Shown here: piece by piece, positions 20,133 through 59,647 of the stretch
How the letters are laid out: each line of letters opens with the position of its first letter
Position numbering within the stretch: the stretch's first letter is position 1
Assembly (NCBI GenBank): GCA_002529455.1
Contig: NYMS01000063.1
Location: forward strand, 1 to 64,000
DNA from: Glycomyces fuscus
GTDB lineage: Bacteria; Actinomycetota; Actinomycetes; Streptosporangiales; Streptosporangiaceae
Direction of reading: 5' to 3'
DNA length: 64,000 nucleotides
Position numbers and translations under genes: made by a program
The notes under the pieces: model-generated
The model's database searches: none
Told to the model about the DNA's origin: nothing
What the model saw: only the letters and a program-made list of their open reading frames with translations

Positions 20133-20166
20133 TGTGGGGTGCCGCGCACCGATGGGGAGGACGCAC

Positions 20167-21672
20167 GTGGACGCCGAGCACACAGTGACGACAGCAGGCG
20201 GACGGGTCCGGGGCACCGCCTCGCCGCGCTCCGAGAGCGGCGGGGTCTCCGTCTACCGGGGGGTGCCCTACGCCGCCGCCCCCTTCGGCGAGCACCGTTT
20301 CGCCGCCCCCGCGCCCCCGCCCGCCTGGGACGGCGTCCGCGACTGCACCTCCTTCGGCCCGCCGCCCCCGCAGGGCGACCAGCTCCTGGGGGCCGCGCCC
20401 TGGAACCCGCAGACGTCCCTGGACTGCCTGTCGCTCAACGTGTGGACCGCCGCCCGCGAGGGCGACCGGGCTCCGGTGCTCGTGTGGATCCACGGGGGCG
20501 CCTACATCGTCGGGGCGGCCTCCGAGGTGGTCTACGACGGCACACGGCTCGCCGAGAGCGGCCTGGTCGTGGTGGGGATCAACTACCGGCTGGGCTTCGA
20601 GGGCTTCGGCCACGTGCCCGGCCGCCCCGACAACCGCGGCCTGCTCGACCAGGCCGCCGCCCTGCGGTGGGTGCGGGAGAACGTCTCCGCCTTCGGCGGC
20701 GACCCCGACAACGTGACGGTGGCGGGGGAGTCCGCCGGGGCCGGTTCGGTCGCGTGTCTGATGGCCTCGCCGCACGCCCGAGGACTCTTCCGGCGCGCGA
20801 TCGGGCACAGCGTTCCGGGGGACATGCTCACCGTGGACACCGCGCGGCTGGTCTCCGAGCGGATCGCCGCGGCCGCGGGCGTCCCGCTGGAGGCCGAGGC
20901 CCTGGCCGCGCTGCCGCCGGAGAGGCTGTTGGAGGCCACCGACGCGGTGCTCGCCTCCGCCCCGGCCGGGAGCTCGGGGGGCGTGCGCACCAAGCCCTTC
21001 ACCTGCTTCGCGCCCGTGGTCGGCGGGCCCGAACTGCCCGAGGCCCCGCTGGAGGCGGTCGCGCGCGGCGCCGCCTCGGGGGTGGACCTGCTGGTCGGTC
21101 ACAACGCCCACGAGTACCGGCTGTTCACCGAGCTGGGGCAGAGCGTGGAGATCGACGGCGAGTCCTCCCTGGCGGTGACCGCCTCCCGCCTGGGACTGGG
21201 GGAGGAGGCGGTGGCCGCCTACCGGTCCGTGCACCCGGAGGCCACGCTGCGCGAGCTGTACGCCGCGATCCAGGGTGACGCCCTGTTCTGCGAGTACACG
21301 GCGCGCTTCGCCGAGGCGCACGCCGCGGCCGGGGGCCGCGCCCACTTCTTCCGGCTGGCCGCGGAGAGCCCGGCCATGGAGGGGCGCCTGGGGGCCTGCC
21401 ACGCCTTCGACCTGCCGTTCGCGTTCGGCAACCTGGACACCGACTTCGGGCGGTTCCTGCTCGGCGGTGAGGCCGGTGAGGCCCACCGGGCTCTGTCGGA
21501 GCGGATGGTCGCGGCCTGGCGCGACTTCGCCGCCACCGGCGACCCGGGCTGGCCCGCGGTGACCGCCGAGGCCACCGCGGTCAAGGTGTGGGACACCGAC
21601 GACCTGCTGCACACCCGTGACGTCTCGCCGGTGCGGCAGCTGTGGGCCGGGGTGTCCCTGGTTCCCCGGTAG
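20167..21672 (+). CDS. Type-B carboxylesterase (alpha/beta hydrolase)
   Basis: Carboxylesterase/lipase of the cholinesterase-like family, 501 residues. Features include YRGVPYAAAPFGEHRF, the disulfide-region DCLSLNVW, oxyanion-hole HGGAY, nucleophile elbow GESAGAGS with S189, and a C-terminal histidine region GACHAFDLPFAF. No signal peptide is seen, so it is probably cytoplasmic. GTG at 20167 lies 7 nt after GGGGAGGA; an in-frame ATG at 20152 overlaps that site. It hydrolyses carboxylic esters, but the natural substrate is not evident. The upstream dyad suggests it is inducible. Confidence 0.92.
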   Translation: MDAEHTVTTAGGRVRGTASPRSESGGVSVYRGVPYAAAPFGEHRFAAPAPPPAWDGVRDCTSFGPPPPQGDQLLGAAPWNPQTSLDCLSLNVWTAAREGDRAPVLVWIHGGAYIVGAASEVVYDGTRLAESGLVVVGINYRLGFEGFGHVPGRPDNRGLLDQAAALRWVRENVSAFGGDPDNVTVAGESAGAGSVACLMASPHARGLFRRAIGHSVPGDMLTVDTARLVSERIAAAAGVPLEAEALAALPPERLLEATDAVLASAPAGSSGGVRTKPFTCFAPVVGGPELPEAPLEAVARGAASGVDLLVGHNAHEYRLFTELGQSVEIDGESSLAVTASRLGLGEEAVAAYRSVHPEATLRELYAAIQGDALFCEYTARFAEAHAAAGGRAHFFRLAAESPAMEGRLGACHAFDLPFAFGNLDTDFGRFLLGGEAGEAHRALSERMVAAWRDFAATGDPGWPAVTAEATAVKVWDTDDLLHTRDVSPVRQLWAGVSLVPR

Positions 21673-21692
21673 GGCCGGCGGGCCCGTGCCCT

Positions 21693-21725
21693 CGGCCCTA
21701 CCGGCCCCGGCGGACCGGTAGGCCG
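21693..21725 (+). terminator. Hairpin after the carboxylesterase
   Basis: CGGCCCTACCGG pairs with CCGGTAGGCCG (one bulge) across a 10-nt loop, starting 21 bp after the stop codon. The rest of the gap to 21909 shows no gene. Confidence 0.5.
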
Positions 21726-21909
21726 GCGGGCCCCGCCCGACGGCGGCGGTAAAGGTTCGGGAAACCCTCACGGTCGGGCCGGGCCCGGCGGGGGAGGTGG
21801 GCACCCTCACAGGTAGGGGCGGGTGGCGCCGGTTCCCGGGCACCGGGGAGACGGCCTTCCACACCGGTGGTGCCGTCACCGGCGGGCACCGTCCCGCCGG
21901 AGGTGAGCG

Positions 21910-23238
21910 GTGACCACGAACGTCTTCGTCCTGGGACTCGACGCCCAGAACCACGAGGTCCTGCTCTCGCTGCCCGACGACGACGGCGGCGGCTACCGCT
22001 TCCTCCCGCTGCTCGGCCTCGACGAGATCGGCCAGGACCGCAGGGTGGACATGCCCGGCCTGCTGGCCCTGGCGGGCCGGAGGCTGGACTCCTTCGAGGG
22101 CGCGGTCGACGCGGTCATCGGCTTCTGGGACTTTCCGGTCAGCTCGCTGGTGCCGCTGCTCTGCCGGGAGCGGGGGCTGCCCTGCGCGCCCCTGGAGGCC
22201 GTCGTGCGGTGCGAGCACAAGTACTGGAGCCGGCTGGAGCAGCGGGCCGTCATCCCCGAGGCCGTCCCCCCGTTCGGAGGAGTCGGCCTCGGCGCCACGG
22301 CCAAGCCGGAGGGGCTCTCCTACCCGCTGTGGGTCAAACCGGTGAAGTCGTTCTCCTCCGAACTGGCCTTCCGCGTCACCGACGACGCCGGGTTCCGCGA
22401 GGCGATGGACAGGATCAGGGCGGGCGCCGGGCGCCTCGGCGAGTCCTTCCAGTGGGTGATGGACCGGGTGCGGCCGCCTCCCGAGGTCGCCGAGCTCGGG
22501 GGCACGGCCGCACTGGCCGAGGAGGAGGTCACGGGCGACCAGCTCACCGTGGAGGGCTACGTCCGCGGCGGTGTCCCGCACGTGTACGGGATCGTCGACT
22601 CCCACCGCTATCAGGGCTCGTCGAGCTTCCTGCGCTACGAGTACCCGTCCAAGGTGCCCGAGGAGGCCGGGGACCGCCTGACCGAGCTGAGCGAGCGCGT
22701 GGTCTCCCGGGTCGGCCTGGACAACGTGACCTTCAACATCGAGTACTTCCACGATCCGCGCAGCGGCGCCGTCCGGCTCCTGGAGATCAACCCGCGGCAC
22801 TCCCAGTCGCACGCCAGGCTGTTCGAACTCGTGCGCGGGGTGTCCAACCACGAGATCTGCCTGAGGGTCGTCCTGGGGCGGGATCCCGAACCGGAGCGCG
22901 CCGGAGGGTACGCGGTGGCCGCCAAGTGGTTCCTGCGCCGCTTCCGTGACGGCTTCGTCTCGGCGGTGCCCACCGAGGAGGACGTCGCGCGCGCGGAGGG
23001 CACGGCACCGGGCACGAAGGTGGAGATCGTCGCGCGCCGGGGCCGGTGGCTCTCCGACCTTCCCTTCCAGGACAGCTACAGCTTCGAACTGGCCCACGTG
23101 TTCGTGGGCGCCCGGGACAGCGCGGAGTGCGAGCGCCGGTACCGGGACTGCGTGGGACAACTGCCCTTCACGATTCGTGACACCGACGAGGAGCCCCGGG
23201 CACGGAGAGGAGCCGGTGACGATGAGAACCGTCAGTGA
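21910..23238 (+). CDS. ATP-grasp ligase, substrate unknown
   Basis: A 442-residue protein of the ATP-grasp superfamily (carboxylate-amine/thiol ligases that pass through an acyl phosphate). ATP-binding lysine region PLWVKPVKSFSSELAF, clamp residues EGYVRGG, and the Mg-binding end FNIEYF... LLEINPRHSQSHARLF resemble the biotin-carboxylase-like and peptide-ligase branches. The N-terminal 100 residues are a Rossmann-like preATP-grasp domain. There is no biotin-carboxylase C-terminal domain and no biotin carrier nearby. GTG at 21910 follows GGAGGTGAG. It overlaps the next gene (CocE/S15 hydrolase) by 17 nt, implying a joint pathway. Confidence 0.82.
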   Translation: MTTNVFVLGLDAQNHEVLLSLPDDDGGGYRFLPLLGLDEIGQDRRVDMPGLLALAGRRLDSFEGAVDAVIGFWDFPVSSLVPLLCRERGLPCAPLEAVVRCEHKYWSRLEQRAVIPEAVPPFGGVGLGATAKPEGLSYPLWVKPVKSFSSELAFRVTDDAGFREAMDRIRAGAGRLGESFQWVMDRVRPPPEVAELGGTAALAEEEVTGDQLTVEGYVRGGVPHVYGIVDSHRYQGSSSFLRYEYPSKVPEEAGDRLTELSERVVSRVGLDNVTFNIEYFHDPRSGAVRLLEINPRHSQSHARLFELVRGVSNHEICLRVVLGRDPEPERAGGYAVAAKWFLRRFRDGFVSAVPTEEDVARAEGTAPGTKVEIVARRGRWLSDLPFQDSYSFELAHVFVGARDSAECERRYRDCVGQLPFTIRDTDEEPRARRGAGDDENRQ

Positions 23239-25255
23239 CCTGCCCAACGAGGTCCATGAGGACGAGTACGTCCTGATCCCGATCAGCGACGGCGTCCGGC
23301 TCGCAGCGCGGATCTGGCGCCCGGTGGGGAGTGAGGGGGACCCGGTGCCGGCCGTACTGGAGTTCATCCCGTACCGCAGACGCGACCTGACGGCGCAGCG
23401 CGACTCGGTGCACCACCCCTACATGGCCGGACACGGGTACGCGTGCGCCCGCGTGGACCTGCGCGGCAGCGGCGACTCCGAGGGCGTGCTCACCGACGAG
23501 TACCTGGAACGCGAGCTCCTGGACGCCGAGGAGGTGCTCGCCTGGCTCGCCGACCAGCCCTGGTGTGACGGACGCACCGGCATGATGGGCATCTCCTGGG
23601 GCGGGTTCAACGCCCTCCAGGTCGCCGCGCGGCGGCCCGAGAGCCTGCGCGCGATCATGACGGCCTGCTCCACCGACGACCGGTACTCCGACGACGTGCA
23701 CTTCATGGGCGGGTGCCTGCTGGGGGACAACCTGTCCTGGGCCTCCACGATGTTCGCCTACAACTCCTGCCCGCCCGATCCGGACCTGGTCGGTGAGCGG
23801 TGGCGCGACATGTGGCACGAGCGGCTGGAGCACAGCGGCCTGTGGCTCGACACCTGGCTGCGGCACCAGCACCGGGACGGGTACTGGAGGCACGGTTCGG
23901 TGATCGAGGACCTGGGCGCGATCCAGGTGCCCGTCATGGCCGTCAGCGGTTGGGCCGACGGCTACTCCAACTCGGTCTTCCGGCTGCTGGCGGGACTGGG
24001 GGTCCCCTGCCTCGGGCTGCTGGGCCCCTGGTCGCACAAGTACCCGCACCTGGGCCAGCCCGGCCCCGCAGTCGGCTTCCTCCAGGAACTGGTGCGCTGG
24101 TGGGACCGCTGGCTCAAGGGCGTCGACAACGACGTGATGGACGCACCCGCCCTGCGGGCCTGGATGCAGGAGAGCGCGGTCCCCTCCACCGCCTACGAGG
24201 ATCGGCCCGGGCGCTGGGTCGGTGAGCGGGAGTGGCCGTCACCGAACATCGTGTTCGAGTCACGCTCGCTGGGGGCCGGCCGGGTGCTCGGGGAGGGGGA
24301 GCGGGAGAGGAGGGAGGACGCCCTGACCCTGTCCTCTCCGCTGTCCACGGGACAGCACGCGGGCAAGTGGTGCTCCTACAACGCCCCTCCGGACCTGCCC
24401 TACGACCAGCGCGAGGACGACGGCGGCTCCATCGTCTTCGACAGCGTGCCGCTCCCGGAGCGGTTGGAGATCCTCGGCTCCGCGGTGGTCGAACTCGAAC
24501 TCGCCGTGGACCGGCCCGACGCGATGATCGCGGTACGGCTGAGCGACGTCACGCCCAAGGGCCAGGCCACGCGCGTGACCTACGGGCTGCTGAACCTCAC
24601 CCACGCCGAAGGCCACGAGAGGCCGCAGAAGCTGGTGCCGGGGCGCAGGTACCGCGTCTCGGTCCCCCTCAACGGTGTGGCGCAGACGTTCCCGCCCGGA
24701 CACCGGGTGAGGATCTCGGTCTCCACCTCCTACTGGCCGCTCGTGTGGCCCTCGCCCGAACCGGTGACCCTCTCCGTGTTCCAGGGGGAGCACACCCGCG
24801 TCCACCTTCCGGTACGCCCCGCCGAAAGCGGGGGCGACGGGCGCGAGGTGGCGCCCTTCGGCGAGCCCGAGGGCACCGCCCCCCTCACGACGAGCCGGAT
24901 CGAGGCGGGCGAGGAGCGGTGGGACCTCAACCAGGACCTCGTGAACTACGAGTCCTCGCTGAACGTGGTCAAGGACCTGGGAACGGTGTGCTTCGACGAC
25001 ATCGGCCTGGAGGTGACCCGGCGCGCGGACGAGCGCTACAGCCATGTCCACGACGACTACGACTCGGTCCGGGGCGAGACGGCGTGGACGATGGGCTTCG
25101 CCCGCGGCGACTGGTCGGTGCGGACCGAGACCCGTACGGTGCTCACGTCCACGGCCACCGACTTCCACCTGCACGCGATACTCGACGCCTACGAGGGCAC
25201 GAGGCGCGTGGCCACGAAGATCTACACCTCGGTGATCCCGCGGGACTGCGTCTGA
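23222..25255 (+). CDS. CocE/NonD family (S15-type) alpha/beta hydrolase
   Basis: A 677-residue hydrolase related to cocaine esterase and X-Pro dipeptidyl peptidase. The N-terminal alpha/beta domain holds DLRGSGDSEG, nucleophile GISWGGF (S125), Asp in SGWADGYSN (D246) and His in WSHKYPHLG (H272). A PepX C-terminal jelly-roll spans about residues 330-540, and about 120 further residues (WDLNQDLVNYESS to the end) form an extra domain. ATG at 23222 has AGGAG 9 nt upstream; GTG at 23216 is an alternative. No signal peptide is seen. It overlaps the ATP-grasp gene, so it may act on the same amide or ester, as tailoring or release enzyme, or as its antagonist. Confidence 0.88.
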   Translation: MRTVSDLPNEVHEDEYVLIPISDGVRLAARIWRPVGSEGDPVPAVLEFIPYRRRDLTAQRDSVHHPYMAGHGYACARVDLRGSGDSEGVLTDEYLERELLDAEEVLAWLADQPWCDGRTGMMGISWGGFNALQVAARRPESLRAIMTACSTDDRYSDDVHFMGGCLLGDNLSWASTMFAYNSCPPDPDLVGERWRDMWHERLEHSGLWLDTWLRHQHRDGYWRHGSVIEDLGAIQVPVMAVSGWADGYSNSVFRLLAGLGVPCLGLLGPWSHKYPHLGQPGPAVGFLQELVRWWDRWLKGVDNDVMDAPALRAWMQESAVPSTAYEDRPGRWVGEREWPSPNIVFESRSLGAGRVLGEGERERREDALTLSSPLSTGQHAGKWCSYNAPPDLPYDQREDDGGSIVFDSVPLPERLEILGSAVVELELAVDRPDAMIAVRLSDVTPKGQATRVTYGLLNLTHAEGHERPQKLVPGRRYRVSVPLNGVAQTFPPGHRVRISVSTSYWPLVWPSPEPVTLSVFQGEHTRVHLPVRPAESGGDGREVAPFGEPEGTAPLTTSRIEAGEERWDLNQDLVNYESSLNVVKDLGTVCFDDIGLEVTRRADERYSHVHDDYDSVRGETAWTMGFARGDWSVRTETRTVLTSTATDFHLHAILDAYEGTRRVATKIYTSVIPRDCV

Positions 25256-25366
25256 GCCGGGCGGAGGCCGGCCGGTGCGGGCCCGGGACCCGGGGGCCGC
25301 ACCGCCCGCGACGCCGGGTGCGCGTGGCGTCCGCGGCGCGCCGGAGCGCCTCGGCGCCGGGCCCGC

Positions 25367-25402
25367 CGACGGGTGCGGGAGGCGCCGCCCCCGCACCCGC
25401 CG
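25367..25402. terminator. Hairpin between convergent genes
   Basis: CGACGGGTGCGGG pairs with CCCGCACCCGCCG (one mismatch). It separates the CocE hydrolase from the end of tex. Confidence 0.55.
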
Positions 25403-25412
25403 GGAGCGGGGC

Positions 25413-27785
<2,373 letters not shown>

Positions 27786-57610: not shown

Positions 57611-59647
57611 TTGGTTCGTTCCTGGTATGAACTGCCGGAGTACGTCCGACTTCGCCGCGTCAACGGACTGCGCCTCTCACCGGACGGAACCCGTCTGGTC
57701 GCGCCCGTCAGCGGCCTCGCCCCCGACTCCAAGTCCTTCCGCAGCGCCCTGTGGGAGATCGACGTCGCCCCCGAGTCCGAGGGCGGGCGCGCCCCCCGGC
57801 GCCTCACCCGCTCGGCCAAGGGCGAGGGCGGCGTCGGCTTCCTCCCCGACGGCTCGGTCCTGTTCACCACCGGCCGCCCCGACCCCGAGGCCGAGGCCGA
57901 CGACAAGGCCGGGACAGCCCTGTGGCTCCTGCCCGCCGACGGCGGCGAGGCACGCCAGGTCGCCTCCCGCCCCGGCGGGATCGGCTCCTTCACGGTCGCC
58001 CGCGACTCCGGGCTGGTCGCCCTCACCGCCGACACCCTTCCGCGCAGCGAGGACGAGGAGGCCGACAGGCAGGCCCGCAAGGCCCGCGAGGAGGCCGGGG
58101 TCACCGCCATCCTGCACGAGGCGCTGCCCGTGCGCTCCTGGGACAGCGACATCGGTCCCGGCCACCCCCGCTACCTCGTCGCCGAACCGCCCGCCGACGA
58201 GGACTCCCGGCTCGGCGACCCGCGGGACCTGACCCCCGACGCCGGTATGGCGCTCGTCGGCGCGGGCGGCGCGCTCTCCCCCGACGGCGGACTCCTGGTC
58301 ACCGAGTGGCAGGTGCCCGTCGGACGGGGCGCCCGGCGCTCCGACGTCGTGGCCGTCGACACCGCCACGGGCGAGCGCCGCACCCTGGCCACCGACCCCG
58401 ACCACGACTTCGGCAGGCCGGCCGTCTCCCCGGACGGCCGCCACGTCCTGCTCGTGCGCGACTTCGAGGGCGCCTACGACGGCGAGCCCCGCGACACGAC
58501 CGCCTGGCTGGTCGACCTGGCCACCGGCCAGGGCCGCGACCTGCTCCCCGACCACGAGCTGTGGCCGCGCGAGCTCGCCTGGTCCGCCGACTCCGGCGCC
58601 GTGTTCGTCGTCGCCGACCAGGAGGGCCGCCGCCCCGTCTTCCGGATCGACCTGGCCAGCGGCGCGGTCACCCGCCTCACCGGCGACCACGGCGCCTACA
58701 GCAACCTCAACCCGTCCCCCGACGGCCGGTACGTGTACGCCCTGCGCGACGCCTGGGACGCCCCGCCCGCCCCCGTGCGCCTGGCCGCCGACGCCGCCGA
58801 CGGCCGGCCCGTGTACCTGCGCACCCCCGGCTCCGAGCTGACCATGCCCGGCACCCTCACCGAGATCGAGGCCACCGCCGACGACGGCACCCGGATCCGC
58901 TCCTGGCTGGTGCTGCCCGAGGACGCCTCGGCCGACTCGCCCGCCCCGCTCACGCTCTGGGTCCACGGCGGCCCCTACATGAGCTTCAACGGCTGGTCCT
59001 GGCGCTGGAACCCGTGGCTGCTGGCCGCGCGCGGCTACGCCGTCCTGCTGCCCGACCCCGCCCTGTCCACCGGTTACGGGCAGGACATGCTCCGCCGTGC
59101 CTGGGGCGCGTGGGGTCCGCGCACCTTCGCCGACGTCATGGCCGTCACCGACGCCGCCGAGGCGCGCGAGGACATCGACGCCGGGCGCACGGCCATGATG
59201 GGCGGCTCCTTCGGCGGCTACATGGCCAACTGGATCGCCGGGCACACCGACCGCTTCAAGGCCATCGTCTCCCACGCCTCCCTGTGGGGCCTGGACGGGT
59301 TCAGCGGCACCACCGACTACCCGCCGGTGTGGGAGCGCGAGTTCGGTACCCCGCTGGAGCGCCCCGAGCGCTACACCCTGAACTCCCCGCACCTGCACGC
59401 GGCCCGCATCCGCACCCCGATGCTCGTCATCCACGGCGACAAGGACTACCGGGTGCCCATCTCCGAGGGCCTGCGCCTGTGGCGCGACCTGCTGCTGCAC
59501 GAGGTGGACGCCAAGTTCCTCTACTTCCCGGACGAGAACCACTGGATCCTCACCCCCGGCAACGCCCGGATCTGGTACGAGACGATCCTCGCCTTCCTCG
59601 ACCACCACGTGCACGGCAAGGAGTGGAGCAGGCCCGAACTGCTCTGA
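57611..59647 (+). CDS. S9 family serine peptidase (acylaminoacyl-peptidase/DPP type)
   Basis: Prolyl-oligopeptidase-family enzyme of 678 residues that cleaves short peptides. The N-terminal beta-propeller (residues about 10-410, with TolB-like repeats such as RLSPDGTRLVAP and NPSPDGRYVYAL) caps a C-terminal alpha/beta hydrolase. The latter carries WVHGGPYMSFNG, nucleophile MMGGSFGGYMANW (S533), Asp in VIHGDKDYRVP (D612) and His in PDENHWIL (H644). No signal peptide is seen. Start is TTG at 57611: it is the only start in frame, with a fine ribosome-binding site CAGGGAG 8 nt upstream. Confidence 0.93.
   Translation: MVRSWYELPEYVRLRRVNGLRLSPDGTRLVAPVSGLAPDSKSFRSALWEIDVAPESEGGRAPRRLTRSAKGEGGVGFLPDGSVLFTTGRPDPEAEADDKAGTALWLLPADGGEARQVASRPGGIGSFTVARDSGLVALTADTLPRSEDEEADRQARKAREEAGVTAILHEALPVRSWDSDIGPGHPRYLVAEPPADEDSRLGDPRDLTPDAGMALVGAGGALSPDGGLLVTEWQVPVGRGARRSDVVAVDTATGERRTLATDPDHDFGRPAVSPDGRHVLLVRDFEGAYDGEPRDTTAWLVDLATGQGRDLLPDHELWPRELAWSADSGAVFVVADQEGRRPVFRIDLASGAVTRLTGDHGAYSNLNPSPDGRYVYALRDAWDAPPAPVRLAADAADGRPVYLRTPGSELTMPGTLTEIEATADDGTRIRSWLVLPEDASADSPAPLTLWVHGGPYMSFNGWSWRWNPWLLAARGYAVLLPDPALSTGYGQDMLRRAWGAWGPRTFADVMAVTDAAEAREDIDAGRTAMMGGSFGGYMANWIAGHTDRFKAIVSHASLWGLDGFSGTTDYPPVWEREFGTPLERPERYTLNSPHLHAARIRTPMLVIHGDKDYRVPISEGLRLWRDLLLHEVDAKFLYFPDENHWILTPGNARIWYETILAFLDHHVHGKEWSRPELL

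Follow-up and report, generated by a model that had tools for sequence, protein, structure and literature searches.

The window analysed here, a stretch of 64,000 nucleotides from Glycomyces fuscus (GenBank assembly GCA_002529455.1, contig NYMS01000063.1, positions 1 to 64,000 of the forward strand), contains two overlapping genes which encode an ATP-grasp protein and a hydrolase of the CocE/NonD (peptidase S15) type. The two open reading frames (ORFs) of this Nocardiopsis-type genome had been placed by an earlier reading of the DNA letters (the original prediction), and both their coordinates and their overlap were borne out (Table 1). We take the association of these genes to be functional and old, and tentatively propose that they form a ligase-hydrolase module by which an amide-linked compound may be made and broken down again.

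Table 1. Features of the ATP-grasp/CocE locus (positions in the window)
Feature	Position	Strand	Remarks
ATP-grasp ligase gene	21910..23238	+	442 aa, GTG start; Pfam ATP-grasp_4; predicted L-amino-acid-ligase-like fold
CocE/NonD (peptidase S15) hydrolase gene	23222..25255	+	677 aa, ATG start; S15, PepX_C and C-terminal all-beta domains
Overlap of the ATP-grasp and CocE frames, 17 nt	23222..23238	+	from ORF coordinates; absent from most relatives
Codon of Lys143, ATP-binding lysine position (W-V-K-P)	22336..22338	+	the same in all 36 aligned sequences; role deduced from the ATP-grasp fold
Codons of E292-I-N294-P-R296, Mg-binding E-x-N position	22783..22797	+	E292, N294 and R296 invariant (36 sequences); role inferred from the fold
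Codon of Ser125, catalytic, hydrolase	23594..23596	+	falls on cocaine esterase motif G-x-S in the alignment; invariant
Codon of Asp246, catalytic, hydrolase	23957..23959	+	falls on cocaine esterase motif GWYDG in the alignment; invariant
Codon of His272, catalytic, hydrolase	24035..24037	+	falls on cocaine esterase motif GPWSH in the alignment; invariant
Carboxylesterase-like ORF	20152-21672		237 nt upstream of the ATP-grasp gene; family judged from sequence
Convergent 790-aa ORF	25413-27785	-	downstream of the CocE gene

The ATP-grasp protein matches a single, general Pfam family above the cut-off (ATP-grasp_4, 41.7 bits against 27) and none of the NCBIfam models above theirs. Models of carbamoyl-phosphate synthase scored below their cut-offs (12 bits against 599, and 10.8 against 1027), as did the Pfam domain CPSase_L_D2 (18.0 against 19.8; partner subunits of carboxylases and carbamoyl-phosphate synthases were not searched for genome-wide). 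An AlphaFold model computed from a 36-sequence alignment (predicted local distance difference test, pLDDT, 92.6; predicted template modelling score, pTM, 0.90) was compared with known structures using Foldseek and VIA-align. The top match was the L-amino acid ligase 3vot (Z 33.4, root-mean-square deviation 3.1 over 368 residues), followed by 4dim (Z 30.3), PurK/PurT-type enzymes and BacD (Z 29.4), with biotin carboxylases also among the matches; families missing from these lists were not counted as excluded. In a single-sequence phmmer search of the PDB, 3vot was the first of two matches (E 0.0023). The positions which, judging from the fold, would bind ATP and Mg (K143, E292, N294, R296) do not vary within the alignment. 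Under the original prediction, a clustering of the protein with a characterised enzyme of unrelated function would have spoken against a shared pathway; no characterised family scored above its cut-off, and the nearest structure is an L-amino acid ligase. With such ligases (BL00235/3vot, BacD/YwfE, RizA) the protein has the whole ATP-grasp fold in common. It differs from them in being only 18% identical, in lacking an NCBIfam model above cut-off, in an N-terminal CEHKYWSR block conserved in its own family alignment, and in the CocE partner present in most rows of the core clade of this family. According to the structural model, the protein is probably an enzyme joining small molecules.

The second protein contains the domains Peptidase_S15 (PF02129, 221 bits) and PepX_C (PF08530, 151 bits), both above the curated cut-offs, and matches the NCBIfam model CocE_NonD (TIGR00976, 223.6 bits against 66.3). 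Its Ser-Asp-His triad is intact, as had been claimed: S125, D246 and H272, together with Y51 at the oxyanion-hole position, align with cocaine esterase and are invariant in 27 aligned sequences. Structures of cocaine esterase were also the best Foldseek matches of its AlphaFold model (pLDDT 81.5). The S15 and PepX_C domains, the triad and the oxyanion Tyr are thus common to this protein, cocaine esterase, alpha-amino acid ester hydrolases and PepX. In contrast to cocaine esterase (approximately 22% identity), the window hydrolase has an additional C-terminal all-beta domain and is genetically tied to an ATP-grasp ligase. The original prediction was correct in noting this extra domain, but the domain is not special, being common in the CocE subfamily and present in unpaired plasmid homologues of similar length, of which the best 40 of 431 records align over 97-100% of the length. 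In alpha-amino acid ester hydrolases a carboxylate cluster, D-x-E-D, follows the catalytic Asp and binds the alpha-amino group. The window hydrolase reads D246-G-Y-S, so that E-D is absent there on a comparison of the motif itself. Judged from its sequence, the CocE protein is probably a serine hydrolase splitting small molecules.

Conservation of the gene pair

A scan of genome contigs (G, C and L numbers are our handles for genomes, contigs and loci; genes in relatives were called by a custom script and not by a gene finder) detected a CocE homologue in 46 of 48 ATP-grasp loci of Actinomycetota and Proteobacteria. It lies directly downstream on the same strand in 44 of them, upstream in Nocardia (L070) and in divergent orientation in Thermocrispum (L069), and was not found in L078 and L086. 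Among 60 relatives, 28 of 29 loci adjoin a CocE gene (the window's own locus left out). We recorded 82 pairs within 1.5 kb in 80 loci; 78 of the pairs are spaced by less than 300 nt (the widest by 1482 nt). Since four gene arrangements occur among these pairs (74 with CocE downstream and 5 with CocE upstream on the same strand, 2 divergent, 1 convergent), the association survives rearrangement. The search for neighbouring homologues, put forward with the original prediction, has therefore given a strongly positive result.

The distance matrices of the two families correlate (mirror-tree r = 0.89). Seven genomes hold two pairs, and in 125 of the 133 informative comparisons drawn from them (not mutually independent) ATP-grasp distance and CocE distance favoured the same paralogue. 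The window genome (G000) is itself a carrier of a second, diverged pair on contig C32 (G000:C32:67063-69201; ATP-grasp gene L230:9913-11205), whose products are 50% and 62% identical to those of the first. In G605, a single CocE gene is preceded by two ATP-grasp genes. In a 79-row tree of ATP-grasp proteins, every one of the 53 paired rows falls into a single clade of 64 (Shimodaira-Hasegawa-like approximate likelihood ratio test, SH-aLRT, 100), whereas none of the 15 remaining rows is paired. Here "paired" denotes a CocE gene within 1.6 kb, so that L176, which has a CocE fragment at a distance of 5.5 kb, was scored as unpaired. The rows of this tree, of the CocE tree (56 rows) and of the tree that defines the subclade linked to cphA (60 rows) were thinned by hand.

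It might be argued that the two genes, with unrelated functions, are kept together merely by shared promoters or by recent transfer. The overlap and the gene order do vary, and 11 of the 64 core-clade rows have no CocE gene within 1.6 kb, some of them lying at contig ends. This explanation is nevertheless already disfavoured, and we consider it highly improbable, given that the pair persists over two phyla, down to approximately 37% ATP-grasp identity, in four arrangements and with matched duplication.

The distribution of the ATP-grasp family is patchy. At E<=1e-30 it was detected in 23 of 396 genomes of Actinomycetota (counting that of the window), in 20 of 369 of Gammaproteobacteria and in 12 of 385 of Alphaproteobacteria. 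An adjacent CocE gene is present in 12 of 22 (the window genome omitted), 13 of 20 and 4 of 12 of these genomes, respectively. The shortfall in adjacency is partly due to distant ATP-grasp proteins and contig ends; near relatives with no CocE gene in the stretch read were also encountered (e.g. L186, L188, L192, L193, L198, L200). Many of the named carriers, among them Halomonas, Yaniella halotolerans, Halosaccharopolyspora and several Nocardiopsis, are salt-associated judging from their names or habitats; Streptomyces albidoflavus, Nocardia veterana and Thermocrispum are not known to be. In an alphaproteobacterial sister clade (L179:8093-9064, L178, L181) a gene for a metallo-beta-lactamase-fold hydrolase stands beside the ATP-grasp gene in place of CocE; its product is perhaps an alternative hydrolase partner.

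Neighbouring genes and unpaired hydrolases

The original prediction regarded a pathway with just this pair as unfamiliar. Most loci indeed comprise just the two genes, but some lineages add cyanophycin genes, an ArgE/DapE-type deacylase, a gene fusion, a cytochrome P450 or a transporter. P450 genes accompany a particular pair (pair II) of Nocardiopsis and Thermocrispum in 10 loci, and a gene for a cysteine-rich DUF326 protein lies beside pair II in 8 loci; both counts are based on clustering by similarity, with a Pfam scan of one protein per cluster (for the P450, that of the window genome). In the window genome the P450 and DUF326 genes are located downstream of the second pair, on C32. As general partners the two were rejected: the link is real, but confined to pair II of Nocardiopsis, with the P450 found in Thermocrispum as well. 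In two Halomonas genomes a gene for an Atg22/MFS-type transporter, which could move the product of the pair, directly follows CocE (L214:7184-8539, L216:7455-8816), and a TelA-family gene lies upstream of the ATP-grasp gene. Other neighbours identified with Pfam (RNase E, GGDEF proteins, a histidine kinase and others) form no recurring set across lineages.

The P450 genes bring to mind a specialised-metabolite pathway, in which the ATP-grasp enzyme would build a dipeptide-like natural product, CocE would remove a protecting or self-immunity group, and P450-type enzymes would tailor the product in some lineages. Hydrolases are known to act in this way in some antibiotic clusters. The patchy distribution agrees with such a pathway, as does the requirement for an ATP-grasp enzyme in scleric acid production in a Streptomyces host, as described in PMC13307308. 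We regard this alternative as rather unlikely, since most loci have two genes only, no regulator or resistance gene recurs in the neighbour clusters across lineages, the transporter follows CocE in only the two Halomonas genomes, and the links to CphA and to an ectoine-synthase-like fusion (see below) point to primary solute or reserve metabolism.

Homologues of CocE that lack the ligase offer a different perspective. All seven plasmid homologues examined (best identity 49.6%) lie beside genes for ATP-binding cassette (ABC) importers. In six cases the genes are laid out as for a dipeptide importer (an annotation as peptide transport exists in Roseivivax; for the other five we read it from gene order), and in the seventh, on an Ancylobacter plasmid, they are of the glycine-betaine type. 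The ATP-grasp profile gave no match in the seven plasmid stretches except for one distant protein in Mesorhizobium (L091, 39.8 bits), 5 kb from CocE. The Roseivivax CocE (L089), beside a dipeptide-type importer and with no ATP-grasp match in the stretch, nests among paired CocEs in the 56-row tree. This importer context fits a hydrolytic, degradative role of CocE. In the Ancylobacter plasmid (L090:3781-10034) two CocE genes flank ABC transporter genes and are followed by a gene for a glycine-betaine-type binding protein; here CocE may act on imported betaine-type compounds.

In another possible scheme the two enzymes would work one after the other and not in opposite directions: CocE would first hydrolyse an ester or amide (e.g. 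an imported peptide or a betaine-type ester), and the ATP-grasp enzyme would re-ligate or activate the freed acid. The plasmid importers and the Mesorhizobium neighbourhood speak for such salvage or remodelling, and a ligase that re-uses beta-Asp-Arg, CphA2, is known. However, importer genes do not recur next to the paired genes in different lineages, and salvage seems to us an unlikely explanation of the pair.

Distant relatives of the ATP-grasp protein were also found on plasmids of Sphingobium and Paraburkholderia (L087, L088); the islands in which they lie carry genes related to copper, efflux and redox functions but lack CocE. A copper- or redox-related role for the window pair was rejected, as the plasmid rows that suggest it lie outside the paired clade.

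Within the window, the carboxylesterase-like ORF upstream of the pair had been considered a possible member of the pathway. This idea was abandoned: the gene occurs near the pair in only 10 of 48 loci, all from close Nocardiopsis relatives. The overlap of the two frames was likewise rejected as a sign of translational coupling because it is not conserved: it is found in 10 of 44 same-order relatives, most of the others having short gaps (start sites chosen by script). A scan for promoters and terminators over positions 21500-25500 found nothing. Elsewhere in the window, positions 58883-59290 gave a weak S15-family match (31 bits) within a 749-aa open frame.

Links to cyanophycin and ectoine synthesis

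In some Proteobacteria the pair is part of a cyanophycin gene cluster, in which cphB encodes cyanophycinase, cphA cyanophycin synthetase and iadA isoaspartyl dipeptidase. The gene order is cphB-cphA-ATP-grasp-CocE in the alphaproteobacterium G841, and cphB-cphA-iadA-ATP-grasp-CocE-M20 (the last gene being of the ArgE/DapE type) in G1224 and G1216, which belong to one gammaproteobacterial family. G1215 resembles G1216, with its genes spread over two contigs and no dipeptidase gene called by the script. In the two genomes scanned with NCBIfam equivalogs, cyanophycinase and CphA (G1224 and G841) and IadA (G1224) scored above cut-off; the cyanophycin genes of G1216 and G1215 were assigned by similarity to these.

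CphA was detected above cut-off in 11 of 80 genomes tested: in 10 of the 11 genomes with one ATP-grasp subclade (ultrafast bootstrap 98, SH-aLRT 96), in 0 of 31 further genomes with this ATP-grasp family, and in 1 of 38 genomes that lack it. The contrast between 10/11 and 0/31 has a Fisher p of 7.5e-9, uncorrected for kinship. In G452, G453, G454, G614, G820 and G1213 cphA and the pair are on separate contigs, and the link is one of co-occurrence only. Control genomes for this count and for that of ectoine synthase were hand-picked from drawn sets. G1215 was placed in the cphA-linked clade by its near-identity to G1216 (99% for CocE and CphA), G355 was left out of the count with its copy lying in this clade, and G827, whose CphA-like match reached 812 of the 850 bits required, was counted as negative; six of the 31 other positives (G163, G390, G442, G306, G456, G580) are in neither the 79-row nor the 60-row tree. 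The main text of a survey of cyanophycin gene clusters (PMC10206079) contains no mention of ATP-grasp, CocE, S15, ectoine or ligase.

A second link concerns ectoine. One protein of G737 combines the ATP-grasp protein with a domain matching ectoine synthase (PF06339, 133 bits against 27) in a single chain. Five of 17 genomes from one gammaproteobacterial family share this fusion (L195:11053-12735, minus strand; also L269, L270, L271 and L272) at 75-100% identity, so that it is not an assembly artefact; all 17 genomes contain ectoine-synthase-type matches. In G737 a convergent ATP-grasp-CocE-M20 set lies next to the fusion gene, with its CocE gene at a distance of 1.4 kb, and in G1224, G1213 and G1216 the fusion faces such a set likewise, the distance from fusion to CocE being 1.3-1.5 kb over the four genomes; in G1215 the two halves of this arrangement are on separate contigs.

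Among Proteobacteria (19 of the 20 gammaproteobacterial positives, G723 being omitted, and all 12 alphaproteobacterial ones), ectoine synthase was detected in 11 of 17 genomes with an adjacent pair, in 0 of 14 with an unpaired ATP-grasp gene (which include distant ATP-grasp rows and contig ends) and in 1 of 34 without ATP-grasp. Within the window's class it is present in 3 of 3 ATP-grasp-positive and 10 of 20 negative genomes, and the window genome carries it.

A possible make-and-break module

Taken together, the conserved pairing, the partner-matched duplication, the conserved catalytic residues, the cphA links (by operon and by co-occurrence) and the fusion suggest, with a probability that we put at roughly 0.4, that the pair is a make-and-break module for an amide-linked intracellular solute or nitrogen reserve. 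The ATP-grasp enzyme would activate a carboxylate as an acyl phosphate and couple it to an amine, giving a dipeptide-like product, which the CocE serine hydrolase would cleave again. The product would most likely be such a solute or reserve, made and mobilised as conditions change. The clades of the pair would differ in substrate: that of one proteobacterial clade would be connected with the metabolism of cyanophycin (Asp/Arg), and a sister ATP-grasp protein is fused to an ectoine-synthase-like cupin. Which way each reaction runs, that the product serves as a solute or reserve, and that the clade of the window follows the same kind of chemistry are our inferences. The original prediction spoke of a product made and then released or trimmed. 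This wording is compatible with the data, but we prefer the making and breaking of a solute or reserve.

Two known systems follow a similar logic. Cyanophycin operons (cphA-cphB with an isoaspartyl dipeptidase) likewise combine a synthetase with hydrolases, and in four relatives the pair is located within an operon of this kind; by analogy, a synthase and a hydrolase in one unit would be the arrangement of a storage compound. The osmolyte N-acetylglutaminylglutamine amide (NAGGN) is produced by a trio, encoded in an operon, of an ATP-grasp synthetase, an amidotransferase and an M42 hydrolase. This trio and our proposal have a principle in common: an ATP-grasp enzyme whose operon also encodes a hydrolase produces a dipeptide that serves specifically as an osmolyte. 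The window ATP-grasp protein gave no match to the NAGGN synthetase model TIGR03103 at E<=1 (the other two genes of the trio were not searched for).

Several observations weigh against the make-and-break proposal. The window pair has no third gene, the P450 beside pair II also fits a specialised metabolite, and the core clade includes the unpaired rows mentioned above. The profile of the ATP-grasp family ranks chains of urea amidolyase, an enzyme of the biotin-carboxylase type (4.1e-11 and 1.5e-10), above 3vot (1.4e-9), and for this reason the assignment as a ligase is based on the fold. The co-occurrence counts are not corrected for relatedness; G737 carries the cphA-linked ATP-grasp subclade, yet cphA was not found there; and, in contrast to the genomes with cyanophycin operons, the window genome shows no detected CphA (E<=1e-100, 10 of 31 candidates scored). 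Six proteobacterial genomes with an adjacent pair have no ectC, and in Actinomycetota the link to ectoine is weak, both within the window's class (counts given above) and in other classes, where ectoine synthase was detected in 4 of 19 genomes with ATP-grasp and in 0 of 26 without it. Finally, all five fusion cupins keep the Glu and Tyr iron-ligand positions of EctC (ligands as given in PMC6344544) and lack the third, a His present in eight other aligned EctC sequences. An ordinary ectoine synthase (cyclase) activity of the fused cupin is therefore unlikely.

The make-and-break proposal can be extended to a wider one, in which the pair would be the core of an undescribed peptide-solute metabolism in halophilic and soil bacteria. 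The ligase would make, and CocE would break, an osmolyte-type amino acid amide, which the altered cupin of the fusion would bind or reshape into ectoine-related peptides, and beta-Asp-Arg from cyanophycin would feed the same chemistry in the cphA clade. Because the iron ligand is missing in all fusions, we give this version less weight and consider it improbable.

Both enzymes belong to well-known superfamilies. In the open-licence literature searched no paper mentions ATP-grasp together with CocE, and we found no description of their close partnership in two phyla or of its ties to cyanophycin and to enzymes of the ectoine type, although absence there is not proof. If the proposal is true, the pair would stand for a kind of nitrogen reserve or compatible solute that is new, with both the synthase and the mobilising hydrolase known, and cyanophycin metabolism would gain an enzyme pair as yet unexplained. 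It also leads to a concrete assay: which carboxylate and amine are joined by the ATP-grasp enzyme, and whether CocE cuts the product.

If the proposal holds, EctC-type proteins could also be studied away from ectoine operons, a context in which PMC6344544 calls their role not yet clear. Additional EctC-type genes located away from ectAB-like neighbours were observed at L234:6877-7278 (minus strand) and L235:6358-6759 (plus strand), in two genomes which also have an ectABC-like set.

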